IMG/VR virus record: IMGVR_UViG_3300021091_004087
Location: 1-20,486 of that record
Strand: one strand, 5' to 3'
Length of the DNA: 20,486 bases
DNA from: a virus
Below are positions 2,429 to 17,295 of the stretch, piece after piece. A model generated the notes under the pieces. That model was given only the letters and a program-made list of their open reading frames with translations, was not told the origin of the DNA and did no database searches. Position numbers and translations under genes: made by a program. The number at the start of each line of letters is the position of its first letter. Within the stretch, counting starts at the first letter, position 1.

Positions 2429-2457
2429 TTGACAGAAGAAGTAAAAAGTATTATAAT
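2429..2457 (+). promoter_or_regulatory. Consensus early promoter before tRNA-Pro remnant
   Basis: TTGACA (2429-2434) and TATAAT (2452-2457) are separated by 17 bp, a perfect sigma70 arrangement. Transcription would start near 2464, only about four bases before the tRNA-Pro-like sequence at 2468, as expected for a promoter built for a tRNA gene. Confidence 0.85.
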
Positions 2458-2467
2458 TAATAACTAA

Positions 2468-2484
2468 CGGGGTGTAGCGCAGTT
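2468..2484 (+). pseudogene. 5' remnant of a tRNA-Pro gene
   Basis: CGGGGTGTAGCGCAGTT matches the first 17 bases of the complete tRNA-Pro downstream (2887-2903) at 14 of 17 positions; the three differences are all in the acceptor stem. CGGGGTG is also the usual bacterial tRNA-Pro acceptor strand. The sequence then breaks off in the D arm, and the HNH promoter element begins. This looks like the 5' end of a former tRNA gene displaced by insertion of the HNH gene. Confidence 0.65.
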
Positions 2485-2487
2485 TTT

Positions 2488-2522
2488 TATAAATATTTGG
2501 GAATACAAATTGTAGTCCCAAA
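2488..2522 (+). promoter_or_regulatory. Late promoter with start-blocking hairpin (HNH 1)
   Basis: An exact TATAAATA occupies 2488-2495. It is followed at once by a hairpin: TTTGGGA (2496-2502) with TCCCAAA (2516-2522), one A/G mismatch, then TACA/TGTA around a 3-nt loop. The right arm reaches the A of the start codon. RNA from the upstream early promoter should fold this stem, while late RNA starting near 2501-2502 would lack most of the left arm. No clear Shine-Dalgarno sequence is visible. Confidence 0.7.
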
Positions 2523-2896
2523 TGAAAACAAGAATTTGTAAAACATGTGGAAACGAAAAATCTCTTGACTTGTCAAAATTTCCATCTGCTGGTATAATAA
2601 AAGGAGTTCAATATTACAGGCACAATTGTATTCCTTGTTACTCTAAACAAAAACTTGAGGAGGGTTCTTTAAGAATGCAAAAGTTTAGAGAATATAAAAA
2701 AACTTTATCATGCAATAGATGTGGTTATAATGATTATAGAGCACTTGAATTTCATCACCCCAATGATGATAAAGATGATTATGATCCTTGCGTTATAGCA
2801 AGAACAAGGTCTTGGGAAAATGTTATTAAAGAACTAAATAAATGTGAGGTTCTTTGTTCAAATTGTCATCGAATAGAACACTTTGCCGGGCATTAG
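2522..2896 (+). CDS. HNH homing endonuclease (first copy)
   Basis: This 124-aa protein has two zinc-binding CxxC pairs near the N-terminus (Cys6/Cys9, Cys36/Cys39) and an HNH nuclease core: Cys64-x2-Cys67, LEFHHP with His78-His79, and CEVLCSNCHRIEH with Cys112, Cys115 and His116. It is a free-standing homing-endonuclease-type gene, not inside a recognisable intron. Its last codons and TAG stop lie inside the first ten bases of tRNA-Pro, and a broken tRNA-Pro 5' end lies before it, which points to a tRNA gene as the insertion target. Expression is probably restricted to late infection by the promoter-hairpin element upstream. Confidence 0.85.
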   Translation: MKTRICKTCGNEKSLDLSKFPSAGIIKGVQYYRHNCIPCYSKQKLEEGSLRMQKFREYKKTLSCNRCGYNDYRALEFHHPNDDKDDYDPCVIARTRSWENVIKELNKCEVLCSNCHRIEHFAGH

Positions 2897-2960
2897 CGCA
2901 GTTTGGTAGCGCGTTCCGTTTGGGGCGGAAAGGCCAAAGGTTCAAATCCTTTATGCCCGA
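2887..2960 (+). tRNA. tRNA-Pro (anticodon TGG)
   Basis: The acceptor strands CGGGCAT (2887-2893) and ATGCCCG (2953-2959) pair perfectly. The anticodon stem TTCCG/CGGAA holds the loop TTTGGGG with TGG at 2921-2923. The T loop is GGTTCAAATCC. The first ten bases overlap the end of the HNH coding sequence. A small hairpin CCAGT/ACTGG (2964-2979) follows and could mark a processing site. Confidence 0.95.
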
Positions 2961-2984: not shown

Positions 2985-3013
2985 TTGACATAAAACCTCA
3001 AGTATTCTATAAT
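2985..3013 (+). promoter_or_regulatory. Consensus early promoter
   Basis: TTGACA (2985-2990), a 17-bp spacer and TATAAT (3008-3013) form an exact sigma70-type promoter. The start site would be near 3020, giving a leader of about 17 nt to the gene at 3037. It should also feed early RNA into the second HNH gene. Confidence 0.85.
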
Positions 3014-3800: not shown

Positions 3801-3830
3801 ATGACCCCTTATGGACAATATCTTATATAA
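3801..3830 (+). pseudogene. 5' piece of a small gene split by HNH 2
   Basis: ATG 3801 is preceded by AGGTGGTGGAG, a strong ribosome-binding sequence, but the frame (MTPYGQYLI) stops after nine codons exactly where the HNH control element begins. A matching open 3' piece follows the HNH gene (4279-4371). Joined near CTTAT/AAAAATTC, the two would give a protein of about 36 aa. This is an inference from frame, RBS and position. Confidence 0.45.
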
Positions 3831-3852
3831 ATAAACACAGTTATATAGGATA
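3819..3852 (+). promoter_or_regulatory. Late promoter inside RBS-hiding hairpin (HNH 2)
   Basis: The arms 3819-3830 (TATCTTATATAA) and 3841-3852 (TTATATAGGATA) pair over 12 bp with one T-G wobble and a 10-nt loop. The right arm contains the AGGA ribosome-binding site (3847-3850) just before ATG 3854. The exact late promoter TATAAATA (3826-3833) straddles the left arm and loop. A late RNA starting near 3839-3840 would therefore lose the left arm and expose AGGA, while early readthrough RNA would hide it. Confidence 0.75.
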
Positions 3853-3853
3853 A

Positions 3854-4288
3854 ATGGCAACTAGAGAACAAAAGTTAGAAGCAAAAAGACGCTACTATCA
3901 AAAAAATAAAAACAAACTAAATGTAGAATCAAGAGAACTCAACATTAGATTGAGATATGAAAAGAAAAATTTTATCATAGAATCTCTTGGATCTAAATGT
4001 CGTGGGTGTGGGACTACTGATTGTCTAGAAATAGATCATATCAATCCTGGACTAAAAAAAGATAGAAAATGTCTTTATGTTTGTTCTTGGGACAGAATCA
4101 AAAGTGAAATGGATAATCTCCAACTTCTCTGTAGTGCCTGTCACCAAGAAAGATCTCAGTTGCAAAAAGATGCTTCTTGGTTTTATTTTAAAAATCTTCC
4201 TCTAGAAGAGCAAAATAATCTAATGGAGCAATTCAAAAAAAAGGGTTCTACTTTACCTTCTTGGTGCCCGCAAGATAAGGCACAATAA
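3854..4288 (+). CDS. HNH homing endonuclease (second copy)
   Basis: This 144-aa protein has a basic, Lys/Arg-rich N-terminus (about residues 1-40) for DNA contact. The HNH core follows: CRGCG (Cys49, Cys52), LEIDHINPG with the catalytic-type Asp61-His62, an Asn-containing helix (DNLQLLCSACH, Asn88), and Cys93, Cys96 and His97. It is not closely similar to the first HNH protein outside the core, so the two are separate insertions rather than a recent duplication. It appears to interrupt a very small gene. Late-only translation is predicted from its upstream hairpin. Confidence 0.85.
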   Translation: MATREQKLEAKRRYYQKNKNKLNVESRELNIRLRYEKKNFIIESLGSKCRGCGTTDCLEIDHINPGLKKDRKCLYVCSWDRIKSEMDNLQLLCSACHQERSQLQKDASWFYFKNLPLEEQNNLMEQFKKKGSTLPSWCPQDKAQ

Positions 4289-4487: not shown

Positions 4488-5084
4488 ATGAAAACTCTTA
4501 AAGAAATTTTAGAAGAATGTCATTTAAATATATGGGATGAGGTTAATTTAAAAATTGATCAAAATTATGGTACAGACAAAGGAGAACCAAAATCTTATAT
4601 TGATGAATATTATGAAGAAAATTTCAAAAAATATAGAGAAAAAAATATAACTTTAGTTGAAATAGGTGTTAGGAGTGGAGCATCTCTCAAATTGTGGTCT
4701 GAATATTTTTGTAAAGAAGCAAAAATATATGGACTTGATAATTTATATGATACTAATAATCACTCTGTACCCATTAATGAAGATTGGGTATTGGGAGATA
4801 ATGTTGAATATATTATAGGCGATGCTTATACTGAAGAAATTTGCAATAAGATTGGAAAAATTGATATATTGATTGATGATGGCCCACACACTCTCGAAAG
4901 TCATGTTAAACTTCTTGAACTATATTTACCAAAAATGAATACTGGCGGTACAATTGTAATTGAAGATATTTCATATGATCCAAATCTTATTTACAATAAT
5001 GTGCCAGATTATTTAAAAGAAACGTCATATGTTTGTGATTATGGTAATTATGATGATAAATTAATTATAATTGAAGGATTTTAA
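4488..5084 (+). CDS. Class I SAM-dependent methyltransferase
   Basis: This 198-aa protein carries the GTDKG...YYEENF start of the sugar O-methyltransferase/Methyltransf_24-like group. Motif I is LVEIGVRSGASLKLW (about residues 56-70), an acidic ribose-binding residue sits in IYGLDN, and IDILIDDGPHTLESH (about 125-139) contains the typical DDGPH metal or catalytic stretch. It probably methylates a sugar or glycan made by the neighbouring enzymes. It opens the cluster, and 93 nt without a gene follow it, the largest gap in the cluster. Confidence 0.75.
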   Translation: MKTLKEILEECHLNIWDEVNLKIDQNYGTDKGEPKSYIDEYYEENFKKYREKNITLVEIGVRSGASLKLWSEYFCKEAKIYGLDNLYDTNNHSVPINEDWVLGDNVEYIIGDAYTEEICNKIGKIDILIDDGPHTLESHVKLLELYLPKMNTGGTIVIEDISYDPNLIYNNVPDYLKETSYVCDYGNYDDKLIIIEGF

Positions 5085-5177
5085 TAATATATTAGAAATT
5101 GCATTACAATCTACTTTATCTATTTGGTACACGTTTTTGGATCTAATATCAAATAAATTATAGGAAGAATAAATTAC

Positions 5178-5912
5178 ATGTCTTATTCTGTAGCAATAAC
5201 AACTTTTAATAGAAGATTTGATCTATTTAAAAATATTTTTACAAAGGTAAAAACCCAAAGACCAGATATTGAACTTTTGGTCTTTATTAATGGACTTACT
5301 AATTTGCCTTTTGATGAAGAATACAGAAAAAATATTTTGGAGTTTATTGCTCCATTTAAAAATACTTTTCCAATTGTTTTTCCAGAATTTAAATCTAATT
5401 CTAAATTCTGGAATATGGCATGTCAAATGATAACGAATGATAATGTTCTCATTTTGCAAGATGATATTGATATGGAGGATACTTTTTTTGATGATTTTGA
5501 TACATCTTATGTGCCAATTTCTGATCATTGCATTTATATTAATGGTTCTTTTGGTGGTCTATATTTAAACAAGTATAAAGTTGATGAACTTAACTGGTTT
5601 GATGAACGATATATTGGAATTGGGCATGAGGATGGAACTTTTATTAGAGCATATGGTGTAAAATATGGATGTATGCCAATTTTAAATGTTTCATCTTTAA
5701 ATAATTGTTATAGTTTAGATTGGCAACAAGATCTAATTAAAAATGAAATTCGCCTTGATGGGCAAAAGTTGGATATTCAAAGTGGTAGATTTTCAAGATT
5801 TAATGAAGAAATATCTTCATTCATAAATTCTGGTCAAGAAGTTTATGATTGTCCTCCACAAAGACAGTATCCTTATGAAAGATTTTACTGGAAATATAAA
5901 TATGACTTGTGA
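5178..5912 (+). CDS. GT-A (GT2-like) glycosyltransferase
   Basis: This 244-aa protein begins SYSVAITTFNRRFDLFKNI, the standard GT2 opening strand and loop. The metal/nucleotide motif is QDDID (residues 94-98). WFDERYIGIGHEDGTFIRAYG near 155-175 resembles the acceptor/catalytic region of galactosyl- and GalNAc-transferases (G-x-EDxxFxxR). It is cytosolic with no membrane segment. It likely adds one sugar in the cluster's glycan; donor and acceptor cannot be predicted. Confidence 0.7.
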   Translation: MSYSVAITTFNRRFDLFKNIFTKVKTQRPDIELLVFINGLTNLPFDEEYRKNILEFIAPFKNTFPIVFPEFKSNSKFWNMACQMITNDNVLILQDDIDMEDTFFDDFDTSYVPISDHCIYINGSFGGLYLNKYKVDELNWFDERYIGIGHEDGTFIRAYGVKYGCMPILNVSSLNNCYSLDWQQDLIKNEIRLDGQKLDIQSGRFSRFNEEISSFINSGQEVYDCPPQRQYPYERFYWKYKYDL

Positions 5913-5942
5913 TTTAACTTGTAAAAAATATAGGTAACTTTT

Positions 5943-6737
5943 ATGAAAATTTTTGATTGTTTTATGTTCTTGAATGAACTTGATATTCTTGAACTTAGGA
6001 TGAATATCCTTAATGATTATGTTGATTATTTTGTAATTACTGAATCTGATTTAACTTTTTCTGGTAATCAAAAATCATTTATTTTTGAAGAAAATTCTGA
6101 TAGGTTTGAAAAATTCAAAGATAAAATTATTTACAATAAAATTATCGTACCAAAAAATATTTCTATTACTTGGGATAGAGAAATATTTCAAAGAAATTCT
6201 TCGATCAATATATTGAAAAATTATGCTGAAGATTGTGATCTTATTCTTACTAGTGATGTGGATGAAATACCCTCAACAGAAATTCTTCAATATATTGATG
6301 ATTGGTATAATCAAAATGAGTTATTTCATCTTCAGCAAAAAATGTTTGTATATTATTTAAATAATTATTCTAATGATCATTGGTTTGGGACAAGAGCATG
6401 TAGTTATGGATATTTAAAAAATAAAAATATTGATGATATTCGCCAGCATACTGAAAATGAGGATAAATTAACTGGATCTATAATTACTAATGCTGGGTGG
6501 CATTTTACTTATCTTGGTGGAGAGGATCAAATAAAAATAAAAATTAATTCCTTTAGTCATCAAGAACATAATACCGAATATGTTAAAGGTAACATTAAAA
6601 AATCTATAAATCTAAATGTAGATGTTTTTGGTAGAACTAGTTCATATAAGGTAGTTGAAATTGATGATACTTATCCAAAATATATCCGAAATAATTTGAA
6701 AAAATATTCTCATTTAATTAAAGATGTTAGCAACTGA
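5943..6737 (+). CDS. Glycosyltransferase family 17
   Basis: This 264-aa protein matches the GT17 pattern: an N-terminal FDCFMFLNELDILELRMN, ITESDLTFSG (about 32-41), LTSDVDEIPS with the DxDE motif at 105-108, and a C-terminal GWHFTYLGG (about 184-192). GT17 includes eukaryotic beta-1,4-mannosyl-glycoprotein GlcNAc-transferase III; bacterial and viral members are poorly characterised. AGGTAACTTTT precedes the ATG. The last 14 nt overlap the next gene. Confidence 0.8.
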   Translation: MKIFDCFMFLNELDILELRMNILNDYVDYFVITESDLTFSGNQKSFIFEENSDRFEKFKDKIIYNKIIVPKNISITWDREIFQRNSSINILKNYAEDCDLILTSDVDEIPSTEILQYIDDWYNQNELFHLQQKMFVYYLNNYSNDHWFGTRACSYGYLKNKNIDDIRQHTENEDKLTGSIITNAGWHFTYLGGEDQIKIKINSFSHQEHNTEYVKGNIKKSINLNVDVFGRTSSYKVVEIDDTYPKYIRNNLKKYSHLIKDVSN

Positions 6738-7617
6738 AATTCTTAATGGTCAGGGGATTGGGAATCAATTATTTTGTTATGTAACTACAAGATCTATTGC
6801 CCATGATAGAGGACTGGAATTTGGTATTAAAGATACCGGATGGAGTGGGGATAAAAGATATAATCAAAGTGGATTTTATTGGTTTGATTTGGATATGGGA
6901 ATTCAAGTTCAAGATAATATGAAAATTTATTATGAAAAAGATAAAAGATTAAAATTAGAAACCTGTTGGCATGATATGGCACATGGTTGTGATATTAGAA
7001 AATATGATCCAGATCTTGTTAATATTCCTGATAATACAATGATTTTTGGAAATATGCAAGACGAAAAATATTTCATTCATAACAAAAGTCTTGTTAAAGA
7101 ATGGTTAAAAGTTAAACCAGAATATGATACTTATGATTATTATGATGATAATATTTGTATTTTAAATTTTAGAGGCGGAGAATATGTAGGATTTGGTGAG
7201 TTATATTTGACAAGAAAGTATTGGATTGATGCAATGAATAATATGACTAAAATCAATCCAAATATGGAATTTGTAGTAATTACTGATGATATAAAAGCAT
7301 CACAAGATATGCTTCCAGAAATTCCAGCATATCACTTTACTGTAGATAAAGATTATGCTATAATTAAAAATTCTAAACATGTAATCTTATCAAATTCTAG
7401 TTTTCCATTTTTTGCTGTTTTTACTAGTGATACTATTAAGAATATTATTGCGCCTAAGTATTGGTCAAGACATAATGTTTCTAATGGTTATTGGTCAATG
7501 GCACAAAATATGTATCATGGATGGACCTATCAAGATAGGGAAGGAAATCTTCAAACCTATGATGAGTGCTTAAAGGAATTTGAAGACTATTCAGTTCAAA
7601 ACAATCTTTATGTATAA
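6724..7617 (+). CDS. Divergent GT11-like (fucosyltransferase-like) protein
   Basis: This 297-aa protein has the GT11 N-terminal signature GQGIGNQLFCYVTTRS (residues 9-24) and a C-terminal LSNSSFPFFAVF that matches the NSTFSWWGAWL region of alpha-1,2-fucosyltransferases. The usual donor-binding HxRRxD is replaced by NFRGGEY (Arg150), so its donor may not be GDP-fucose. It overlaps the GT17 gene by 14 nt. A second, canonical GT11 lies at 13220. Confidence 0.65.
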   Translation: MLATEILNGQGIGNQLFCYVTTRSIAHDRGLEFGIKDTGWSGDKRYNQSGFYWFDLDMGIQVQDNMKIYYEKDKRLKLETCWHDMAHGCDIRKYDPDLVNIPDNTMIFGNMQDEKYFIHNKSLVKEWLKVKPEYDTYDYYDDNICILNFRGGEYVGFGELYLTRKYWIDAMNNMTKINPNMEFVVITDDIKASQDMLPEIPAYHFTVDKDYAIIKNSKHVILSNSSFPFFAVFTSDTIKNIIAPKYWSRHNVSNGYWSMAQNMYHGWTYQDREGNLQTYDECLKEFEDYSVQNNLYV

Positions 7618-7630
7618 TTGTAAAAGATAT

Positions 7631-8131
7631 ATGAAAATCGGATTTAATTGCAGTTCTTTCGATTTATTTCATGCTGGGCATGTTACCATGCTTAAAATGG
7701 AAAATGAAATGTGCGACTATTTAAAAGTAGCCCTTCAGGTTGACCCAACAATTGATAGACCTGGAGTTAAAAATAAACCAGTACAATCTGTATACGAACG
7801 TTATGTTCAACTTCAAGCATGTAAATATGTTGATGAAATTTTAGTTTATGAAACTGAAGAAGATTTACTTAACCTAATTCAAACTCAAACAATTCATATC
7901 CGTTTTTTGAGTGAAGAGTATATAGATAGAGACTTTACTGGAAAACAATATTGTATTGATAATAATATAGAGTTATTTTATCATTTGAGAAAACACAAAT
8001 ATTCTTCAACTGAAATCAGAAATAGAGTATATAATCTTGAAAAGAAAAAAAGAGAAGAGAATGGAGATATATCTACTTTGGATCAATATTCTCCAGAACT
8101 CTTAGAAAAATATTCTTTAAGGAATGATTAA
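7631..8131 (+). CDS. Cytidylyltransferase-like (TagD-type) protein
   Basis: I start this 166-aa protein at ATG 7631, because MKIGFNCSSFDLFHAGH aligns with the beginning of glycerol-3-phosphate cytidylyltransferases; an upstream in-frame start would add 17 residues with no homology. HAGH is the HxGH nucleotide-binding motif, DRPGVKNKPVQSVYERY (about 40-57) matches the substrate/dimer region, and KYSSTEIRNRV near 140-150 corresponds to the RTxGISTTxI motif, with the TxGI part altered. It likely makes a CDP-activated alditol or related donor. Confidence 0.75.
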   Translation: MKIGFNCSSFDLFHAGHVTMLKMENEMCDYLKVALQVDPTIDRPGVKNKPVQSVYERYVQLQACKYVDEILVYETEEDLLNLIQTQTIHIRFLSEEYIDRDFTGKQYCIDNNIELFYHLRKHKYSSTEIRNRVYNLEKKKREENGDISTLDQYSPELLEKYSLRND

Positions 8132-8133
8132 TA

Positions 8134-9060
8134 ATGACAATCTTAGTTACTGGTGGCGCAGGATTTATTGGTAGTAATCTTCTTCATCATTTGATTAATA
8201 ATATAGATGAGGAAATTGTATGTATTGATAAATTAACTTATGCCGCAAATAGAAATAATGTTCCCGATGGCATGAAATTTTATGCTACTGATATTGCTGA
8301 TGAACATAACTGTGAATATATCTTTAAAAAGCATAAACCAAAGACAATTTTTCATCTTGCTGCTGAAAGTCATGTAGATAATTCAATTAAAGATTGTTCT
8401 CAGTTTCTTCATACAAATATTAATGGAACTGTAAATCTTCTCAATTTATCTGTAAAATATGAAGTTGAAAAATTTATGCACATTTCAACAGATGAAGTTT
8501 ATGGATCGATAGAAAAAGGATATTTTACTGAACTTTCAAATTATAACCCAAGGAATCCATATTCAGCATCTAAATCTGCAAGTGATCATTTTGTGATGGC
8601 TTATCATACCACTTACGGATTACCAACAATTATTACAAACTGTTCTAATAATTATGGACCTAGGCAAGATGCTGAAAAAATGATTGCAAAGACAATTACA
8701 AATCTTATGCAAGGTAAAAAAGTTCCTGTTTATGGTGATGGAAACCAAGTAAGAGATTGGTTGTATGTACAGGACCATTGTGAAGCACTTTCAACAATTG
8801 CTGAAAGGGGTTGTATTGGTGAAAAGTATAATATTGGTGGAGAATGTGAAATTAAAAATATTGATCTAGTTAGGATGATTCTTGATCGTATGAATATGAA
8901 GGAAAATATGATAGAATATGTTCAAGATAGACCTGGGCATGACCTTCGTTATTCGACTGATATTACTAAAATTCGTCATGAATTGAAATGGTCACCAAGA
9001 TTTTCTGTAGAACAAGGACTTGATAAAACAATTGAATGGTATGAACGCAATAGGAACTAA
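8134..9060 (+). CDS. rfbB: dTDP-glucose 4,6-dehydratase-like enzyme
   Basis: This 308-aa extended SDR has the NAD-binding GGAGFIG (7-13), the acidic IDKLTYAANRNN stretch (31-42) typical of RmlB, the FHLAAESHVDNSI segment (73-85), the catalytic TDE triad in ISTDEVYG (117-124) and Tyr143-x3-Lys147. RmlB converts dTDP-glucose to dTDP-4-keto-6-deoxyglucose. It is slightly shorter than most RmlB proteins (about 330-360 aa). Its end overlaps the RmlC-like gene by 20 nt, supporting a shared pathway. Confidence 0.85.
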   Translation: MTILVTGGAGFIGSNLLHHLINNIDEEIVCIDKLTYAANRNNVPDGMKFYATDIADEHNCEYIFKKHKPKTIFHLAAESHVDNSIKDCSQFLHTNINGTVNLLNLSVKYEVEKFMHISTDEVYGSIEKGYFTELSNYNPRNPYSASKSASDHFVMAYHTTYGLPTIITNCSNNYGPRQDAEKMIAKTITNLMQGKKVPVYGDGNQVRDWLYVQDHCEALSTIAERGCIGEKYNIGGECEIKNIDLVRMILDRMNMKENMIEYVQDRPGHDLRYSTDITKIRHELKWSPRFSVEQGLDKTIEWYERNRN

Positions 9061-9580
9061 TTTAAAAGATGCTTATATCATCACAAACAATAAGTTTGAG
9101 GATGATCGTGGTTTTTTTATGGAATCATTTAACTTAAAAGAATTTGAAAAAATTACTAATGTGAATAATTTTGTTCAAGACAATCACTCCAAATCTTCCA
9201 AGGGTGTTTTGAGAGGGCTTCATTATCAAATAAAGCATGAGCAAGGTAAATTAGTTCGTTGTATTTCTGGTGCAGTTTATGATGTAATTGTGGATTTGAG
9301 GAAAAGTTCTGAAACTTTTGGAAAATGGTTTGGAATCAAACTATCTGAAAATAATATCCAATTATGGGTTCCTGCAGGATTTGCTCATGGATTTTATACT
9401 CTTACAGATTTTGCAGAAATACAATACAAGGTAACTGATTATTATTATCCAGAATATGACAGAACATTAATTTGGAATGATCCAAATTTAGATATTAAAT
9501 GGGGGATAAATGAAACTCCCATACTTTCTGAAAAGGATTTGAAAGGAAAAACTTTTGAGGAATGTGAAAAGTATGATTGA
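9041..9580 (+). CDS. rfbC: dTDP-4-dehydrorhamnose 3,5-epimerase-like enzyme
   Basis: I chose ATG 9041, which gives 179 aa, the normal RmlC length. The RmlC cupin features are present: FEDDRGFFMESF (19-30), NHSKSSKGVLRGLHYQ with catalytic His61, GKLVRCISGAVYDVIVDLR (69-87), VPAGFAHGFYTL (110-121), and LSEKD near 162-166. It epimerises dTDP-4-keto-6-deoxyglucose at C3 and/or C5. No RmlD reductase is clearly identified; the next gene could fill a reductase role. Confidence 0.85.
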   Translation: MNAIGTNLKDAYIITNNKFEDDRGFFMESFNLKEFEKITNVNNFVQDNHSKSSKGVLRGLHYQIKHEQGKLVRCISGAVYDVIVDLRKSSETFGKWFGIKLSENNIQLWVPAGFAHGFYTLTDFAEIQYKVTDYYYPEYDRTLIWNDPNLDIKWGINETPILSEKDLKGKTFEECEKYD

Positions 9581-10400
9581 AAAAATTTCTGTCTATGGTG
9601 GAACAGGATTTATTGGAGGTTCTTTTTGTAACCTTTTTTCTGAACAAGTTATAAAAATTCCCAGGGATTCTAGAAAACCACAATCCAAAGATATTCTTTA
9701 TTTTATTAGTACAACTACGAATTATAATGTATTTGAAGATCTTCATGTAGATATTAATACTAATTTGAATCTCCTTATGGAAGTGCTTCAGTATTGTAAA
9801 AGTGAAGATATTGTATTTAATTTTGTAAGTTCTGGATTTGTATATGGATTGGATGTGATAGATGCAAAGGAAACTGATATTCCAGATCCTAGAGGATTTT
9901 ATTCCATTACAAAAAGAACAGCAGAACAATTATTAATTTCATTTTGCGAAACTTTTGGATGTAAATATCGTATTTTCCGTCTTGCCAATGTGTATGGAAC
10001 TGATAAGACAGTTTCTCCGAAAAAGAATGTTCTTGGATTCTTGATAAACAAATTGAAAAATAATGAGGACGTTCAACTTTATGATGGGGGACTTGTTCTC
10101 CGTGATTATATGCATGTAGATGATGTTTCTAGAGCAATTAAATGTATCATTGACGGTGGATCGGAGAATGCAATATATAATATTGCTACTGGACAACCAC
10201 AATACTTTCGTGATATAATTCAATTAGCAGTTGATAAATTATCTGATTGTAGAAGTAAGATTATATCTTCGGAAACTCCAGAATTTTACGCAAAAACTCA
10301 AGCAAAAAACTTTTCTTTAAATATTGAGAAGTTAAATAATTTAAATTTTAAACCAACTATTTCACTTGATATTGGAATTGACCAACTATGTACCAATTGA
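9573..10400 (+). CDS. NAD(P)-dependent sugar epimerase/dehydratase (SDR)
   Basis: This 275-aa extended SDR, read from ATG 9573, has VYGGTGFIGGSF (GGTGFIG at 9-15), FVSSGFVYG (84-92) and the catalytic Tyr110-x3-Lys114 (YSITK). LRDYMHVDDVSRAI near 181-194 is the usual sugar-nucleotide-binding region. It could be a 4-ketoreductase or epimerase for the sugar made by the RmlB- or RfbH-like enzymes; paratose/abequose synthase-type roles fit the context but are not proven. It overlaps both neighbours by 8 and 13 nt. Confidence 0.75.
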   Translation: MIEKISVYGGTGFIGGSFCNLFSEQVIKIPRDSRKPQSKDILYFISTTTNYNVFEDLHVDINTNLNLLMEVLQYCKSEDIVFNFVSSGFVYGLDVIDAKETDIPDPRGFYSITKRTAEQLLISFCETFGCKYRIFRLANVYGTDKTVSPKKNVLGFLINKLKNNEDVQLYDGGLVLRDYMHVDDVSRAIKCIIDGGSENAIYNIATGQPQYFRDIIQLAVDKLSDCRSKIISSETPEFYAKTQAKNFSLNIEKLNNLNFKPTISLDIGIDQLCTN

Positions 10401-11686
10401 TTGATAATTTTATTAAGTCTACGAAAGAAATTGATAGTGATATCTTTCCTTTTCTAGCAAACAAAAAGAATTTTAATCCAGAAACTGATTCAGTTTATTA
10501 TTCTGGTCCTTATTGGGATGATGAAGAAATTGTTGAAATGATTCATTCAATTCTAAAAGGAAAATGGTTATCTTCTGGAGAAAAAGTCCATAAGTTTGAA
10601 AAACAATTTTCTAAAAAATTTGGATTTAACCACTCAGTAATGGTAAATTCTGGTAGTTCTGCTAATCTTGTAATGTTTGCAGCACTCAAGAAACATTTTG
10701 GGTGGAAAGATGGAGATGAAATTATTGTTTGTGCATGTGGATTTGCTACTACAGTTGCTCCTATTGTTCAAAATGGATTGAAACCAATTTTTGTTGATAT
10801 TGATTGGTCTGATTTAAATTGGGATTTGAATCAAGTAGAACAAAAAATATCTGCAAGAACTGTAGCAGTAATTTCCTCACCTGTTCTTGGAAATCCTTAT
10901 GATATTGATAAAATTGTTCAAATTTGTAAGGAAAAAGGAATTCAATTGATTGCTGATAATTGTGATAGTCTTGGTAGCAAATGGAAAGGTAATTATTTGA
11001 CCGATTATGCAGTTGCCTCATCTTGTTCTTTCTATCCAGCACATCATATTTGTACTGTGGAAGGTGGAATGGTCTCTTCTAATATTAAAGAAGTTGTAGA
11101 TCTTGCTCGAAGTTTTGCTTGGTGGGGTCGTGACTGTTATTGTGTTGGTCAGCAAAATCTTCTTTCTTGTGGAACTTGTGGTAAAAGATTTGATAATTGG
11201 TTGGAAGGATACGATGGAATCGTTGATCACAAATACATCTTTTCCAATATGGGATATAATCTAAAACCTCTTGATCTTCAGGGGGGACTTGGATCTGTTC
11301 AACTTACTAAGTTTGATGAGATTCATCGTATTCGTAGAGAGAATAAAAATACAATTGGGAATATTCTTGAAACTATTTCTGGTGTGAGAGTTGTTGAGGA
11401 ACGAAAGGAGGCAGAAACTAGTTGGTTTGGTGTTCCTATTATTTGTGAAACAAAACAATTAAAGGAAACATTAGTTCAACATTTGGAAAAAAATAAAGTT
11501 CAAACACGTAATTATTTTGCTGGAAATATTCTTCTACATCCTGGATATAAACATCTTGATGATTCAAGTAAATATCCAAATGCAAATCAAGTATTAAATA
11601 AAGTATTTTTCTTAGGATCTTCCCCAACAATTACTAGATCCATGATTAATTATATTTCCGATGTTATTAAAAAATATAATCAATGA
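10388..11686 (+). CDS. rfbH: RfbH/E1-type sugar-nucleotide 3-dehydrase
   Basis: This 432-aa protein belongs to the DegT/DnrJ/EryC1 fold and specifically to the E1/RfbH branch. The PLP-binding lysine is replaced by histidine (SFYPAHH, His220), as in CDP-4-keto-6-deoxyglucose-3-dehydrase. The [2Fe-2S] cysteines fit: Cys192-X57-Cys250-X1-Cys252, then Cys261 after eight residues where the family has seven, with Cys264 also near. E1 removes the C3 hydroxyl of a CDP-4-keto-6-deoxy-hexose using electrons from a ferredoxin-reductase partner (E3), leading to 3,6-dideoxyhexoses. No E3-like gene is in the window. Confidence 0.85.
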   Translation: MYQLIDNFIKSTKEIDSDIFPFLANKKNFNPETDSVYYSGPYWDDEEIVEMIHSILKGKWLSSGEKVHKFEKQFSKKFGFNHSVMVNSGSSANLVMFAALKKHFGWKDGDEIIVCACGFATTVAPIVQNGLKPIFVDIDWSDLNWDLNQVEQKISARTVAVISSPVLGNPYDIDKIVQICKEKGIQLIADNCDSLGSKWKGNYLTDYAVASSCSFYPAHHICTVEGGMVSSNIKEVVDLARSFAWWGRDCYCVGQQNLLSCGTCGKRFDNWLEGYDGIVDHKYIFSNMGYNLKPLDLQGGLGSVQLTKFDEIHRIRRENKNTIGNILETISGVRVVEERKEAETSWFGVPIICETKQLKETLVQHLEKNKVQTRNYFAGNILLHPGYKHLDDSSKYPNANQVLNKVFFLGSSPTITRSMINYISDVIKKYNQ

Positions 11687-12357
11687 TTAATTTATCTGAA
11701 GTAACTTTAATATGTGTATCTTCTGTACAAATGGATAAAGTTTTTTATTCATTTCAAAAAAGTATTGAAGGTATAAAATTTGGTGAAGTCAAATTAGTAT
11801 CTCATAAAAACCCAGATAATTTACCTGATTTTATTTCTTTTGAAGAAACTTATCAAATAAAATCTAAAGATGAATATAGTTATTATTGTATATACAATTT
11901 AACTAATCATGTAAATACCTCGCACTGTTTAATAATTCAACCTGATAGTTTTGTAATTAATCCTGAAATGTGGGATAATTCTTGGTTAGAATATGATTAT
12001 ATTGGAGCTCCTTGGGAATATTCTAAAGGTGCTTATATTGATCCATGGGGAAATCATCAAAGAGTTGGTAATGGTGGATTTTCTCTTAGAAGTAAAAAAC
12101 TTTTAGATGTACCTAAAAATGCATATGTTCACTTTGATGTTAATTATGGAAATTTTTATAAACATATGAATGCTAACAATTTTGCTGAAGATGGAAATAT
12201 ATGTGTTCATAATAGGCACATATATGAAGCGTTAGGTTGCAAATTTGCACCTATTGAAGTAGCAGCAAAATTTTCCCATGAAAAACAAACTACAGAAACA
12301 CAAGGTATAAAACCTTTTGGATTTCATTCTATTCTTCCTCCAGGTACTCAATTATGA
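11683..12357 (+). CDS. DUF5672-type glycosyltransferase-like protein
   Basis: This 224-aa protein shows the DUF5672 pattern: IIQPDSFVINP (about 84-94) in place of a DxD region, YDYIGAPW (104-111), RVGNGGFSLRSKKLL (127-141), an EDGNICVHNR stretch and APIEVAAKFSHE near the C-terminus. The family has a GT-A-like fold and is usually found among surface glycan genes; no activity is well established. The ATG overlaps the rfbH stop by 4 nt (ATGA). Confidence 0.7.
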   Translation: MINLSEVTLICVSSVQMDKVFYSFQKSIEGIKFGEVKLVSHKNPDNLPDFISFEETYQIKSKDEYSYYCIYNLTNHVNTSHCLIIQPDSFVINPEMWDNSWLEYDYIGAPWEYSKGAYIDPWGNHQRVGNGGFSLRSKKLLDVPKNAYVHFDVNYGNFYKHMNANNFAEDGNICVHNRHIYEALGCKFAPIEVAAKFSHEKQTTETQGIKPFGFHSILPPGTQL

Positions 12358-13223
12358 AATTTATAGTTTGGAGACATAAACTTCATGAATCAACTCATAG
12401 TTATATCCACAGTTCATATAATAAAGCATTCCAATATCTTGGATATGAAACTTATTGGGTAGATAGTAGAGATGATTTGAGTTCGATTGATTTTTCAGAT
12501 GTAGTATTCTTTGTTGAAGGATCTTGTAGTAATGATGTACCAAGATTTGCAAATTGTAAATATATTGCACATCATGTTGATAATGAAGAATTAATTTCTT
12601 CTGGTATTCCTTTTGAAAATATTTTAAATATTGGCAATTATCTTCCCAGAGAAGAAGTTCATGAAAAAATTGAGGATCTTGCATATTGGGATAAAAATAC
12701 TAGAACTCTTTACCAATGTTGGGGAACTGATTTACTTCCTCATGAGATTGATATTAATGGATATGTCCCTTTTAATTCTTCAAGAAAAACTCTTAATTAC
12801 GTTGCAATGCTCTATGAGCAAGGTCCTTGGTGGGCAGAAGAATTTGCAACTTTATTAGATCGTGATTTTGGAGTAGAATTTAAAGTTTTTACTCAGCATG
12901 TAAGTCATGAAGAAAATATTCAATTGATAAGAGAATCGTTTTTATGTCCAGATTTTAGAAGTGATTGGCATTTAGAGTGTGGATATATTCCATGTAGGAT
13001 GTGGAAAAATATTAGTTATGGGAGAATTACTGGAACTAATTCTCCATACGTCAAACGAGCATTGGGAGATTATGTCGTATTTGGTGGAATACCGCAGACA
13101 TTGTATCAAAATCTTTTGAATGCTGAACGGAATCAAACAATTAATATGAAAGATGCTATGATGTTTGTAAGAGAAAATCACACTTTCATTAATCGCGTAA
13201 ATAATATTTTAAAGTTCTTATGA
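12354..13223 (+). CDS. Putative GT-B-like glycosyltransferase
   Basis: This 289-aa protein begins MKFIVWRHKLHESTHSYIHS and has a C-terminal stretch RMWKNISYGRITGTNSPYVK plus ALGDYVVFG that resembles the donor-binding end of GT-B or CgeB-like enzymes. I do not see a decisive catalytic motif. It overlaps the DUF5672 gene and the fucosyltransferase gene by 4 nt each, so it belongs firmly to the glycan operon. Assignment as a glycosyltransferase is mainly from context. Confidence 0.55.
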   Translation: MKFIVWRHKLHESTHSYIHSSYNKAFQYLGYETYWVDSRDDLSSIDFSDVVFFVEGSCSNDVPRFANCKYIAHHVDNEELISSGIPFENILNIGNYLPREEVHEKIEDLAYWDKNTRTLYQCWGTDLLPHEIDINGYVPFNSSRKTLNYVAMLYEQGPWWAEEFATLLDRDFGVEFKVFTQHVSHEENIQLIRESFLCPDFRSDWHLECGYIPCRMWKNISYGRITGTNSPYVKRALGDYVVFGGIPQTLYQNLLNAERNQTINMKDAMMFVRENHTFINRVNNILKFL

Positions 13224-14002
13224 TTGGATTTAATCACCTAGGTCGTCATGGAAGACTCGGAAATCAAATGTTTCAATATGCTGCACTTAGAGGTATTGCT
13301 GCATTAAAGGGATATGACTTTTGTATACCATACTCTGAATTTAAAGATCAGTGGAATGATCATCAATTGTTTGAGGCATTTAATCTACTTAAATTAAATA
13401 AAAAACAAATACTTCCTGGAAATTATTATCAGGAAAAACAATTTAATTATGATCAAGACTATGTTGATAATTGTCCTGATAATGTAAATTTATATGGATA
13501 TTTTCAAACAGAAAAATATTTTTCTCATATTTCTGACAGTATAAAGCAAGATTTTACTTTTAAACCAGAAATTTTAGATCCTTGCAAAGAAGCATTTAAT
13601 TTTGATCAACTCATTTCTCTTCACATTAGAAGAACTGATTTTGTTGAAAAGTCTGACGATCATCCTCCATGTTCTTTAGAATATTATCAAAAAGCACTTG
13701 AACAATTTGATTCCAATATTCAAGTAATGATTTTTTCTGATGATATTGAATGGTGTAAGAATCAAAAGTTATTTGAAGATGATCGATTTATTTTTTCCGA
13801 GAATGGGTGGAATTTAATTGATTTATGTTTAATGAGTATGTGTACTCATCATATTATTGCAAATAGTACTTTTAGTTGGTGGGGGGCATGGTTATCTGGA
13901 TCGGATAAAGTTATAGGACCTTCTAAATGGTTTGGTAATTCCGGATATACTGCATCACATAATGCAATAGATATTATTCCTGAAAGGTGGATGAAAATCT
14001 AA
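13220..14002 (+). CDS. Alpha-1,2-fucosyltransferase-type GT11
   Basis: This 260-aa protein has all GT11 landmarks: GRLGNQMFQYAALRGIA (residues 11-27), YGYFQTEKYF (92-101), LHIRRTDF with the GDP-fucose-binding His135-x-Arg137-Arg138-x-Asp140, a FSDDIEWC segment, and NSTFSWWGAWL toward the C-terminus. It should transfer fucose from GDP-fucose in an alpha-1,2 linkage. No complete GDP-fucose pathway is in this window, although a gmd-like remnant lies at the cluster start, so the host or another phage locus may supply the donor. Confidence 0.88.
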   Translation: MIGFNHLGRHGRLGNQMFQYAALRGIAALKGYDFCIPYSEFKDQWNDHQLFEAFNLLKLNKKQILPGNYYQEKQFNYDQDYVDNCPDNVNLYGYFQTEKYFSHISDSIKQDFTFKPEILDPCKEAFNFDQLISLHIRRTDFVEKSDDHPPCSLEYYQKALEQFDSNIQVMIFSDDIEWCKNQKLFEDDRFIFSENGWNLIDLCLMSMCTHHIIANSTFSWWGAWLSGSDKVIGPSKWFGNSGYTASHNAIDIIPERWMKI

Positions 14003-14754
14003 TGGCAGAATTTTCTATATGTATCCCTACTTATGAATATAGTGGTAATGGAGTTAAATATTTAAAAAAAATATTTGATACTCTTGGAAGTCAAACTTTT
14101 GATGATTTTAATATTGTAATTTCAGATCATAGTAAAAATAATGAAATCTATCACTTTTGTGAAGTTAGTAGCAATGAATTTGAAATAATATATGTAAAAA
14201 ATGAAAATGGTGTTGGTAAATTGGGACCCAACACTAACTGTGCCTTAGAATTTGCTACTGGTAGAATTATTAAACTCATCTATCAAGATGATTTTTTCTT
14301 TGACAATCGAGCATTGGAAAAAATTAAAAATGCTTTTGATGTTTCTGATAAGAAATGGTTAATGAATGGATTTATTCATACTGAAGATGAAGTAAATTTT
14401 TTCCGTCCTTTGATTCCTAGATGGACTGATATGCTTTTGGAAGGTAGAAATCTTATGGGAAATCCATCTGCGTTTTCTATTCTTAATGAATGTAAACTAT
14501 ATACTGATGAAAATTTAAATCTTTTAATAGACACTGAATTTTATCATAGACTTAGGTGTGAATATGGTATGCCTTATATTGTGGATGATATACTAACTGC
14601 TAATAGGGAACATCCTAATCGTATGAGTAGTGGTGGAATTCAATATGATATGCAAATTAATCATCCAGAGGGTGGTTGGTTGGTCAATAGAAATGAATAC
14701 GAGTATGTGATTCAAAAGCATAAAAATAATAGGAAGTATCCAGATGAAAATTGA
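14002..14754 (+). CDS. Glycosyltransferase family 2
   Basis: I start this 250-aa protein at ATG 14002, which overlaps the previous stop as TAATG. It opens FSICIPTYEYSGNGVKYLKK, and then has FNIVISDHSKNN and GKLGPNTNCALEFATGRIIKLIYQDDFFF, where QDD is the GT2 metal site. A possible acceptor-region aspartate lies in LLIDTEFYHRL. It is a soluble GT-A enzyme of the surface-sugar operon; linkage and sugar cannot be inferred. Confidence 0.8.
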   Translation: MAEFSICIPTYEYSGNGVKYLKKIFDTLGSQTFDDFNIVISDHSKNNEIYHFCEVSSNEFEIIYVKNENGVGKLGPNTNCALEFATGRIIKLIYQDDFFFDNRALEKIKNAFDVSDKKWLMNGFIHTEDEVNFFRPLIPRWTDMLLEGRNLMGNPSAFSILNECKLYTDENLNLLIDTEFYHRLRCEYGMPYIVDDILTANREHPNRMSSGGIQYDMQINHPEGGWLVNRNEYEYVIQKHKNNRKYPDEN

Positions 14755-15571
14755 TTTTAAAGATGCAACTTTTATAATTCCAATAAGAATTGAATCTGAT
14801 GATAGACTTCGAAATGTAATTACTACATTATGTTTTTTAGCATCTAATTTTGATACAAAGATTATCGTTCATGAAGTAGATAATGAATCAATTTTTAAAA
14901 GAGATGCTTTACCACAAATAAAAGAATATCTTGAGGATGATATTTCATTTCTTAATCATATATTTGAACCATCTGATTCACTTTCATTTCATAGACAAAG
15001 AGTTTTGAATGATATGCTAATGATGACAGATACTTCTGTAGTCATTAATTATGATTGTGACATTTTACTTCCCATAGAATCTTATGTGACTGCATATAAT
15101 CTACTTCTAAGTAAAGAATCTGAAGTAGTTTATCCTTATGGCGATGGTGATTATCAAAAACAAATATTTGCAGACGATGAACTTGTATCTGATTTTTTAA
15201 ATAATAATTTTGATTTTAAAATTTTAGAAAAAAAATCAAAAACGTACATGTCCAAGTATGGGTTTGTTCAATTTTTTAATCGCCAAGTTTATATTGACGG
15301 TGGAATGGAAAATGAAAATTTTGTTGCTTATGCTCCAGAAGATGTAGAAAGATTTTACAGATTCACAACTTTGGGTTATAATGTATCTAGAGTTGAGTCA
15401 CTAGTTTATCATTTAGAACATAAGAGAACCGAGAACTCTTGGTTTAATAATCCTTATATGAAATCTAATAATGATGAATGGGAAAAAATTAAAAAAATGA
15501 AATTTGAAGAATTAAAAAGATATATTTTAAATCAAAATTATTATAAGAACCGCATTTATGGACAAAAATAA
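14744..15571 (+). CDS. GT2/GT27-like glycosyltransferase
   Basis: This 275-aa protein has a GT-A opening FKDATFIIPIRIESDDRLRN, the DxD-like VVINYDCDILLP (about residues 98-109), and a C-terminal VAYAPEDVERFYRFTTLGYNVSR region in which GxxxEDxExxxR-like spacing matches the catalytic half of chondroitin-synthase and galactosyltransferase domains. YHLEHKR follows, with the metal-binding histidine. It overlaps the genes on both sides by 11-14 nt. Confidence 0.75.
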   Translation: MKIDFKDATFIIPIRIESDDRLRNVITTLCFLASNFDTKIIVHEVDNESIFKRDALPQIKEYLEDDISFLNHIFEPSDSLSFHRQRVLNDMLMMTDTSVVINYDCDILLPIESYVTAYNLLLSKESEVVYPYGDGDYQKQIFADDELVSDFLNNNFDFKILEKKSKTYMSKYGFVQFFNRQVYIDGGMENENFVAYAPEDVERFYRFTTLGYNVSRVESLVYHLEHKRTENSWFNNPYMKSNNDEWEKIKKMKFEELKRYILNQNYYKNRIYGQK

Positions 15572-16343
15572 ATCAGCATATAAACTTAAAAACATTGCTC
15601 CCATATATTATCTTAATCTGGATGGTCAACCAGAACGTAAGGAATATATGGAAGAGCAGTTTAAGTATTGGGAAATTGAAAATTATACTCGTATCTCTGC
15701 TTATGATGGTCGTGAAGATGACTTAAGTGACATCATCAAAGGTCGTTATCCAGAGACAATGACTTCTGGTGAGATTGGATGCACTACTTCACATCTCAAA
15801 GCAATTAAGCATTGGTATGAAACATCTGATTCTCCTTATGCGATTATTATGGAGGATGATGTAGATCTTCAAATTGTAAGGTTTTGGAATTTTACATGGG
15901 CAGATTTTGCATCCAAGATTCCTTATGATTGGGATGTGATTCAGTTAGCAATTATTTGCACAGGTAATCTTCATGTAAAACTTCATAAGCGGTTTATTAA
16001 TGACTTTTCAACCGCTGCTTATATGATTACTCGTCATCATGCAGAAAAACTTTTGAGACTTCATGTTCGTGGTGATAAGTATAAGTTAGATCAAGAAGTT
16101 AAACCAAGACCTGTTGCTGATGATTTGATTTATAATTCTGGAAATACTTTTTCAATTCCTCTTTTTCTTTATCGTATTGCTTTAGGTTCTTCTATTCATC
16201 CTGAACATGTGGATGTGTTTCATCGAGCAAGTCATGATGGTTTACTAAATTTTTGGCAACAACAAGGATGTCAAATGGAAATTAAAGACTTAATGAATTA
16301 TGATCCTTATCTTGGGCGGGTTACTGAAGCATCTCAACAATAG
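15558..16343 (+). CDS. Glycosyltransferase family 25
   Basis: This 261-aa protein has the GT25 hallmarks: IYYLNLDGQPERKEYMEEQF (16-35), SGEIGCTTSHLKAI (70-83) and AIIMEDDVDL (95-104) with the EDD metal site. GT25 includes lipooligosaccharide galactosyltransferases. Its codon choice looks less A+T-rich than the preceding genes, more like the phage core. GT25 genes are frequent in T4-like cyanophages, so this may be a resident gene beside which the cluster was added. A terminator follows 33 nt after its stop. Confidence 0.85.
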   Translation: MDKNKSAYKLKNIAPIYYLNLDGQPERKEYMEEQFKYWEIENYTRISAYDGREDDLSDIIKGRYPETMTSGEIGCTTSHLKAIKHWYETSDSPYAIIMEDDVDLQIVRFWNFTWADFASKIPYDWDVIQLAIICTGNLHVKLHKRFINDFSTAAYMITRHHAEKLLRLHVRGDKYKLDQEVKPRPVADDLIYNSGNTFSIPLFLYRIALGSSIHPEHVDVFHRASHDGLLNFWQQQGCQMEIKDLMNYDPYLGRVTEASQQ

Positions 16344-16376: not shown

Positions 16377-16405
16377 AAAGGGGTCTTGACACCCCTTTCT
16401 TTTTG
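16377..16405 (+). terminator. Rho-independent terminator of the sugar cluster
   Basis: AAAGGGGT (16377-16384) and ACCCCTTT (16391-16398) form an 8-bp stem with a 6-nt loop CTTGAC, followed by CTTTTTG. It ends the long sugar transcript. Its loop and right arm also contain the -35 box of the next promoter. Confidence 0.8.
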
Positions 16406-16414
16406 CTATATAAT
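16386..16414 (+). promoter_or_regulatory. Consensus early promoter for hli
   Basis: TTGACA (16386-16391), a 17-bp spacer and TATAAT (16409-16414) form an exact sigma70-type promoter. The start site near 16421 gives a 20-nt leader to hli. The -35 box lies within the terminator hairpin of the upstream unit. Confidence 0.88.
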
Positions 16415-16657: not shown

Positions 16658-16712
16658 ATTTCATATACCATACATTATAAATAATATAAAATATATGTGT
16701 GGTATATGAAAT
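16658..16712 (+). promoter_or_regulatory. Late promoter in loop of start-hiding hairpin (HNH 3)
   Basis: The arms 16658-16675 (ATTTCATATACCATACAT) and 16695-16712 (ATGTGTGGTATATGAAAT) pair over 18 bp with one T-G wobble. The 19-nt loop (16676-16694) starts with an exact TATAAATA late promoter (16676-16683). The right arm contains the start codon ATG 16706. RNA from the hli early promoter should sequester the start; late RNA from about 16689-16690 contains only the right arm. Confidence 0.8.
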
Positions 16713-17206
16713 CTCTTTACAACATCGGTGATAAAATACACCGACTTACTATCAAAGGAAAAACAGTTTGCACTACTCCAAGTGGAAGAAATCGTTCTCA
16801 TTATATTTGTGAATGTGAGTGTGGAAATGAAGTGAAGGTTGAGGGATATAACCTCAATAATGGTCGTTATAAATCCTGTGGATGTAAAAGAGCATCTGCT
16901 GGTGGAATATCAAACACAAAAAAATATAGAATGTGGAAATCTGCACAAGAGCGTGCTATTAAAAAAGGATTAGAATTTTCTATACGAGTGGAAGATATTA
17001 AAATACCAAAAACTTGCCCTTTATTGAACATAACACTTATTGAAGGTGATAGAGAATGTACTCCTTCACTTGATAGAATTGATAGTAAAAAAGGATATAC
17101 TCCAGACAATGTGTGGGTTATATCTCATAGAGCAAACCAAATAAAAAATGATGCTACACTTGAAGAATTAAAACTTATAACAGAAAACCTATCAAAAATA
17201 ACTTGA
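16706..17206 (+). CDS. HNH-like homing endonuclease (third copy)
   Basis: This protein is 166 aa from ATG 16706; a GTG at 16697 would add three residues. The N-terminal zinc module is YICECECGNEVKVEGYNLN (Cys35, Cys37, Cys39) with SCGC (Cys58, Cys60), a pattern common in phage homing proteins. The nuclease-like part is SLDRIDSKKGYTPDNVWVIS with Asp123 and Asp126, Asn135, then HRANQIKND (His141, Asn144, Lys147); the usual DHID is DRID here. It lies between hli and the ferredoxin genes without obvious intron sequence, so it is likely free-standing. Confidence 0.75.
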   Translation: MKSLYNIGDKIHRLTIKGKTVCTTPSGRNRSHYICECECGNEVKVEGYNLNNGRYKSCGCKRASAGGISNTKKYRMWKSAQERAIKKGLEFSIRVEDIKIPKTCPLLNITLIEGDRECTPSLDRIDSKKGYTPDNVWVISHRANQIKNDATLEELKLITENLSKIT

Positions 17207-17208
17207 CA

Positions 17209-17295
17209 ATGACCGAACTTTTCTTTACAATGACAAGCGTTGCCTTCTTTGTTCTATTGGCAGCATCCGTAGAAAAAATTTGCGAAACTTACTGA
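17209..17295 (+). CDS. 28-aa single-pass membrane peptide
   Basis: The frame opens 2 nt after the HNH stop and ends 6 nt before the ferredoxin ATG. The product has a hydrophobic helix (about residues 4-21, LFFTMTSVAFFVLLAASV) and an ending EKICETY. Its size and topology resemble small photosystem or cytochrome b6f subunits, but the sequence does not match one I recognise. It is supported by its snug fit in a photosynthesis/redox operon. Confidence 0.45.
   Translation: MTELFFTMTSVAFFVLLAASVEKICETY

Follow-up and report, generated by a model that had tools for sequence, protein, structure and literature searches.

A tRNA-seated HNH nuclease gene of a T4-like cyanophage with a predicted start-hiding leader hairpin that may double as a DNA operator

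THE LOCUS

The window, as we call the whole stretch of DNA analysed here, is a 20.5-kb fragment from a virus record with T4-like cyanophage content (psbA, an hli-like gene, tRNA genes and late-promoter boxes), and its BLAST neighbours are among the Synechococcus myoviruses. It holds three HNH genes, named HNH1, HNH2 and HNH3 in what follows, whose leaders and surroundings are listed in Table 1. The start of HNH3 is most likely ATG 16706 rather than GTG 16697. The ORF translations of 4488-16343 read as a surface-sugar island, with sugar-nucleotide, glycosyltransferase and epimerase-like genes following one another over a long distance. At 17203-17231 an 11/12 sigma-70 promoter overlaps the HNH3 stop and is apparently an early promoter for the downstream ferredoxin-like gene.

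Table 1. Features of the three HNH loci in the window
Feature	Position	Strand	Remarks
Sigma-70 type early promoter	2429..2457	+	TTGACA-17-TATAAT; 12/12 consensus match; presumed function
tRNA-Pro 5'-end remnant	2468..2485	+	CGGGGTGTAGCGCAGTTT; read in the sequence; same start as tRNA-Pro genes of related loci
Late promoter box	2488..2495	+	TATAAATA; start expected near 2501 from T4 spacing
Left half-site	2496..2502	+	TTTGGGA; identical to anticodon loop of tRNA-Pro(UGG); in hairpin left arm
Right half-site	2516..2522	+	TCCCAAA; in hairpin right arm; takes in A of HNH1 start codon
HNH1 gene	2522..2896	+	124 aa; stop codon TAG is tRNA nt 8-10
tRNA-Pro (anticodon TGG)	2887..2960	+	overlaps HNH1 end
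Sigma-70 type promoter	2985..3013	+	12/12; upstream of genes preceding HNH2
HNH2 hairpin (12-10-12)	3819..3852	+	arms 3819-3830/3841-3852; late box 3826-3833 in/beside left arm
HNH2 gene	3854..4288	+	144 aa
Sigma-70 type promoter	16386..16414	+	12/12; of hli-like gene upstream of HNH3
HNH3 hairpin (18-19-18)	16658..16712	+	arms 16658-16675/16695-16712; late box 16676-16683 in loop
HNH3 gene	16706..17206	+	166 aa

HNH1 is an HNH nuclease by sequence, matching phrog_2255 (E 5e-26) with the Cys/His residues conserved; the Pfam HNH match is marginal and appears in only 2 of 13 HNH1-family members. No match to the GIY-YIG family, to which SegB belongs, was found for HNH1, which matched HNH PHROGs instead. 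Its profile matched none of the solved structures, and its AlphaFold model (mean pLDDT 79) had no significant match in the PDB; Hpy99I and Cap5, among the best matches of that model, had E above 1 and were set aside. A clear Shine-Dalgarno site is absent from the HNH1 leader.

PROMOTERS AND HAIRPINS OF THE HNH LEADERS

The late promoter motif of cyanophages is NATAAATA (PMC2984593). Directly 3' of the HNH1 box TATAAATA (2488-2495) lies TTTGGGAATACAAATTGTAGTCCCAAA-TG, and an inverted repeat with 14-nt arms, 93% complementary, occupies 2495-2508 and 2510-2523. An earlier note on this DNA described the box followed by an 11-bp hairpin with one mismatch that reaches the start codon; the box, the mismatch and the reach are all there, but the stem is longer, 13 bp with one 1x1 mismatch, and both the A and the U of the start codon are inside its right arm. 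RNA of 2493-2524 folds at -12.6 kcal/mol (z = -4.1), and none of 200 shuffles folded equally well. The box on its own occurs 5 times against 3.6 expected, which is not significant in a window this rich in AT; its combination with the hairpin is significant.

Since the sigma-70 promoter at 2429-2457 is perfect, early RNA should carry the entire HNH1 hairpin; no terminator-like site was found between promoter and gene for HNH1 or HNH3. The HNH1 hairpin was itself considered as a terminator and ruled out, having no T-run and no terminator prediction. RNA from 2501, the T4-type start 6 nt past the box, cannot by computation form the hairpin, most of the left arm being gone, just as the note had held for a start near 2501-2502. 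Its further statement that every HNH gene in the window sits behind an early promoter and has such a switch holds as well, with 12/12 promoters and hairpins at HNH1, HNH2 and HNH3. The late box lies immediately upstream of or inside the left arm, the arrangement of T4-type homing-endonuclease control. In the computed folds the start or ribosome site is hidden on read-through RNA and the hairpin is missing from late RNA, but this is not so in a sister clade on tRNA-Thr (below).

In HNH2 the right arm includes the AGG of the ribosome site, and in HNH3 (z -6.35) it covers ATG 16706. The HNH2 stem has 9 G-U and no A-C pairs, its covariation being reached in 0 of 500 shuffles; the HNH3 stem has 10 G-U and 3 A-C pairs. 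Covariation in both stems exceeded that of all 500 shuffles and of slid controls. Such a preponderance of G-U over A-C pairs is expected from RNA pairing and not from a DNA dyad alone. A search of the flanking DNA for copies of the HNH2 and HNH3 arms gave nothing convincing, only 8-10-nt matches.

START-OPENING COSTS AMONG LATE-PROMOTER GENES

As a measure of start hiding we took the extra energy needed to expose the start region in read-through RNA relative to RNA starting 6 nt past the box. The median cost in kcal/mol was 5.4 for relatives of HNH1 on tRNA-Pro (the Pro clade), 10.9 for HNH2 and 11.8 for HNH3, against 0.3 for the sister HNH clade on tRNA-Thr(UGU) (the Thr clade), 0.05 for a Leu-like clade and 0.65 for S-CAM3 ORFs. 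These last were a first control set of 32 ORFs with HNH genes among them; the larger set described below had the nucleases sorted out. All Pro-clade members have the hairpin in contact with the ATG, and for 79% of them the cost is at least 4 kcal/mol. An ordinary gene of the window, Dps/ferritin-like, came out at 4.1 kcal/mol by this measure, but 11 ferritin-family genes of related loci were below the 4 kcal/mol cut-off.

The survey took in ORFs 80 aa or longer that have NATAAATA 12-45 nt in front of them, drawn from related loci and the S-CAM3 genome, with a cut-off of 4 kcal/mol. The comparison with non-HNH late-promoter ORFs that the earlier note had proposed came out as a clear enrichment: 47 of 60 HNH-family ORFs (78%) reached the cut-off versus 25 of 95 other NATAAATA ORFs (26%). 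Seven of those 25 high-scoring 'controls' proved to be nucleases themselves (an HNH_3 gene, a GIY-YIG gene, two further HNH genes, two PD-(D/E)XK genes and one SegE-like gene). Sorted into nucleases and non-nucleases, the ORFs give 54/73 for the former versus 18/82 for the latter (~22%). With the families that first drew attention left out, the counts are 7/13 versus 18/82 (Fisher p 0.036). Both comparisons ignore relatedness, and 54/73 and 7/13 are approximate, about six low-scoring nucleases having been counted from family tallies rather than per protein.

The two highest scores belong to an HNH_3 gene (L024:1961-2386; 19.7 kcal/mol) and a GIY-YIG gene (L073:4646-5317, minus strand; 18.6 kcal/mol), each with a start-hiding hairpin around its late promoter. 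In a PD-(D/E)XK gene (PF11645; L242-L256, e.g. L242:250-680) TATAAATA is followed by ACCAGT...ACTGGT-ATG; this leader is kept in at least three upstream contexts, and tRNA-Ser(UGA) starts directly after the stop. The high-scoring non-nucleases include phrog_3316 genes with terminator-like hairpins in front and a cyanophage lysozyme gene (L029:3564-4193), in which the late promoter is followed by a hairpin over the start region that is also terminator-like. The late-only switch, put forward as general for mobile nucleases, is thus enriched in them, and is neither a rule nor exclusive to them.

For the three HNH genes of the window the late-only switch is well supported: sequence, fold and conservation across contexts back it, and for HNH2 and HNH3 covariation does too. 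An RNA switch in the strict sense has good support in HNH2 and HNH3 and is plausible in HNH1; the Thr clade lacks one.

THE SEAT AT THE tRNA GENE

HNH genes of the Pro clade have their stop codon in or near tRNA-Pro(UGG), usually at tRNA nt 8-10, where T8-A9-G10 is near-universal; in two loci (L092, L111) the tRNA begins just downstream of the stop. The tRNA-Pro(UGG) sequences beside complete HNH genes vary between loci. In the window an 18-nt tRNA-Pro remnant (2468-2485) directly precedes the HNH1 unit and differs in acceptor sequence from the intact tRNA-Pro at 2887-2960.

Isolates of S-CAM3 provide both states of the site. The unit is present in KU686199 and absent from KU686198, with the left flank identical over 563/563 nt and the right flank 99.5% identical over 1048 nt. 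The empty allele has 15 nt (GTGACTCCTCACTGA) between the identical left flank and tRNA-Pro, where the occupied allele instead carries TTAATG together with late promoter, repeat and HNH ORF. Such a pair of alleles sharing near-identical flanks is expected of a homing endonuclease gene. The tRNA-Pro genes of the two alleles differ near the 3' end only, and the T-stem is disrupted in the occupied one (L056:3354-3424 versus L203:1030-1100). This looks like a gene-conversion patch ending inside the tRNA, and the tRNA-Pro of the occupied allele may be impaired. Several cyanophages have tRNA-Pro with no adjoining HNH gene. The S-CAM3 alleles and these HNH-free loci support homing at the tRNA gene, with a direction of change that we infer from the sequences. 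No informative empty allele for the Thr clade was found among isolates.

HNH1 relatives in unrelated phages of Klebsiella, Salmonella, Streptomyces, Vibrio and Escherichia (L209, L197, L211, L213, L214) are likewise at tRNA 5' ends (Lys, Ala, Cys, Tyr, Pro), without the repeat; several share their stop with tRNA nt 8-10, and some are unannotated.

THE REPEAT AND THE ANTICODON LOOP

We scanned viral contigs for the DNA pattern TATAAATATTTGGGA-N4-34-TCCCAAA, using no protein information. It occurred in 24 contigs and had an HNH1-family gene directly behind it in 23 of them. All 23 have the 13-nt spacing, whereas the remaining contig, with a spacer of 25 nt, lacks a start codon at that place. HNH1 relatives keep the leader behind quite different upstream DNA, and the promoter, the inverted repeat and the HNH gene are found together as a unit in many settings. 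The HNH1-family repeat, of 7-13-7 nt, is near-fixed while protein identity among the sampled members drops to about 45-50%.

Leaders of the Thr clade carry TTTGTAA-N13-TTACAAA. In tRNA-Pro(UGG) the anticodon loop (nt 32-38) reads TTTGGGA and in tRNA-Thr(UGU) TTTGTAA, each identical to the left half-site of its clade, and the right arms, TCCCAAA and TTACAAA, are the exact complement of nt 32-38 in both clades. With nt 32 allowed as C or T, the loop 7-mer of the clade's own tRNA was present in every unique leader, 30/30 for Pro and 11/11 for Thr. Loops of other isoacceptors matched at most 2-3 of these leaders, except that of Ile(UAU), CTTATAA, which is matched by the promoter box itself. The two clades amount to two independent instances of the match, which is absent from the tRNA-seated relatives outside T4-like cyanophages and from the PD-(D/E)XK unit. 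The tRNA holds one half-site, not the 7-13-7 pair. From the match in the two clades we take the anticodon loop as the presumed target of the enzyme.

Two resemblances were not used as support. In a Leu-associated clade (A3) the leader holds TTCTAAA, similar to the Leu(UAG) loop in reverse complement; in most members neither a tRNA-Leu downstream nor a 7-13-7 repeat is present, and the clade was not counted. A Vibrio relative seated on a Tyr tRNA (L213) has a short CTGTA palindrome of other geometry, treated as chance.

Around the repeat the other signals move. In the Pro clade the late promoter ends 1 nt before the repeat, and the start codon is in contact with it; Thr-clade promoters end within the repeat (+16/+18), and their start codons follow 11-15 nt after it. 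Since promoter and start shift and the 7-13-7 geometry does not, the repeat is best taken as a candidate DNA binding site. The arms and cores of both clades are almost purely Watson-Crick and tell little about RNA pairing, and covariation is uninformative in the Pro clade because its stem hardly varies.

INTERPRETATION

The HNH1 leader is probably the control unit of a free-standing HNH homing endonuclease gene, combining a start-hiding hairpin with a DNA operator that resembles the homing site. The unit, made up of late promoter, 7-13-7 inverted repeat and HNH ORF and located at the tRNA-Pro 5' end, recurs across contexts, is carried or lacked as a whole by sister isolates and has its stop in common with the tRNA. 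Early RNA from the host-type promoter would read through HNH1 into the tRNA; on it the repeat would fold and hide the start codon, and neither would nuclease be made nor would ribosomes run into the tRNA. Late RNA would begin inside the left arm and be translatable. On the DNA the same repeat would serve as an operator whose half-sites copy the anticodon loop of the target tRNA, and the nuclease, in binding its target sequence at its own promoter, would lower its own late transcription, as I-TevI does. A wider proposal, which we advance tentatively and rate at a little under even, is that of a tRNA-homing HNH family whose DNA specificity tracks the anticodon loop of its own tRNA and whose late promoter lies embedded in a 7-13-7 repeat built from that loop sequence, a 27-nt element that would travel with the gene and encode target choice, autorepression and, in one clade, early silencing.

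The strongest competitor, to our minds an unlikely one, gives the repeat the sole task of hiding the start on read-through RNA and treats the likeness to the anticodon loop as accidental. The strong folds and hidden starts of the Pro clade, HNH2 and HNH3, the G-U pairs and covariation of the latter two and the known T4 precedent all agree with it, and a late-only switch by start hiding, the role given to the repeat in the earlier note, is well supported for HNH1-HNH3. It probably does not exhaust the role, however: the HNH1 family conserves a 7-13-7 repeat that in the Thr clade is 11-15 nt from the start codon and hides nothing, the arm sequence changes with tRNA identity, and a hairpin needs no near-invariant stem across proteins 45-50% identical. 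With the repeat retained in the Thr clade and the start left uncovered, a DNA operator accounts for it better than translation control alone.

The converse, that the repeat is only an autorepressor site and the Pro-clade hairpin a by-product of its position, is less probable still. The geometry fixed independently of promoter and start, the nearly pure Watson-Crick arms of both clades and the exposed Thr starts fit it well, but the hairpin is at the ATG in every Pro member, with the energies given above, and hairpins at the ATG are found independently in HNH2, HNH3 and the PD-(D/E)XK unit.

We consider it very improbable that tRNA-Pro (or tRNA-Thr) itself pairs with the right arm of the leader and so controls initiation: the exact complementarity to nt 32-38 in both clades would allow this, but both half-sites are kept at a fixed spacing that such pairing does not need, late RNA of the Thr clade starts within the right arm, and the nuclease's own target is a simpler reason for the match. 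Chance, in the sense that hairpins close to the start are common in AT-rich leaders containing TATAAATA, could draw on the 26% of other late-promoter ORFs at the cut-off and on the 3.6 boxes expected in the window, and is equally remote given the 23/24 pattern matches before one gene family in different contexts, the z values of -4.1 (HNH1) and -6.35 (HNH3) and the 78% versus 26% of the survey.

RELATION TO KNOWN SYSTEMS

A late promoter within a start-hiding hairpin has been described for I-TevI, I-TevII and I-TevIII, segB, e and soc of T4 and for mobE of Aeh1 (PMC2988022, PMC3014915). The suggestion that the generality might be undescribed thus fails as regards the principle, known from the T4 I-Tev genes, segB and mobE (PMC2988022). 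In the literature open to search, most subscription journals lying outside it, we found neither this switch described for cyanophages, nor HNH genes whose ends lie in tRNAs, nor their promoters with half-sites taken from an anticodon loop.

As in T4 I-TevI, the position of the late promoter would leave late RNA without the left arm, and read-through RNA is predicted to hide the start region. The operator of I-TevI, similar to its homing site, lies across the late promoter (PMC2988022), and the HNH1 promoter may likewise overlap a sequence like the presumed target. The I-TevI enzyme is of the GIY-YIG type and encoded inside a group I intron, however, whereas HNH1 is free-standing, of the HNH type and tRNA-seated, and its target-like sequence, with putative operator and homing roles, itself forms the hairpin arms.

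T4 SegB is closer in situation, being a free-standing nuclease by tRNA genes with a late promoter and a hairpin (predicted in segB), and it cuts tRNA genes. Unlike HNH1 it is a GIY-YIG and not an HNH enzyme, and the cleavage motif of this tRNA-region nuclease, RAWTSGAAC (PMC13096335), is not an anticodon loop. Aeh1 mobE, like HNH1 a free-standing HNH gene of a T4-like phage, is the case in which the hairpin was shown to hide the RBS (PMC2988022, PMC3014915), but it sits in a ribonucleotide reductase gene and not on a tRNA, and no target-derived arms are described for it in those two papers. Gene e of T4, for lysozyme, has its late promoter inside a start-hiding hairpin, with a comparable leader in the cyanophage lysozyme gene of L029, but unlike HNH1 it is an ordinary lysis gene and not mobile.

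IMPLICATIONS

Only a few examples of late-only control of mobile nucleases, in phages T4 and of Aeromonas, had been known before. Among T4-like cyanophages the arrangement is widespread, being found in HNH and PD-(D/E)XK families and in isolated GIY-YIG genes, and it moves with the unit. The anticodon-loop half-sites predict that the enzyme would recognize this sequence and repress itself through it, and the natural occupied and empty alleles of S-CAM3 permit a direct test. Early silence may have its reason in the seat itself: translation of the nuclease gene would carry ribosomes on into a tRNA in use by the phage.
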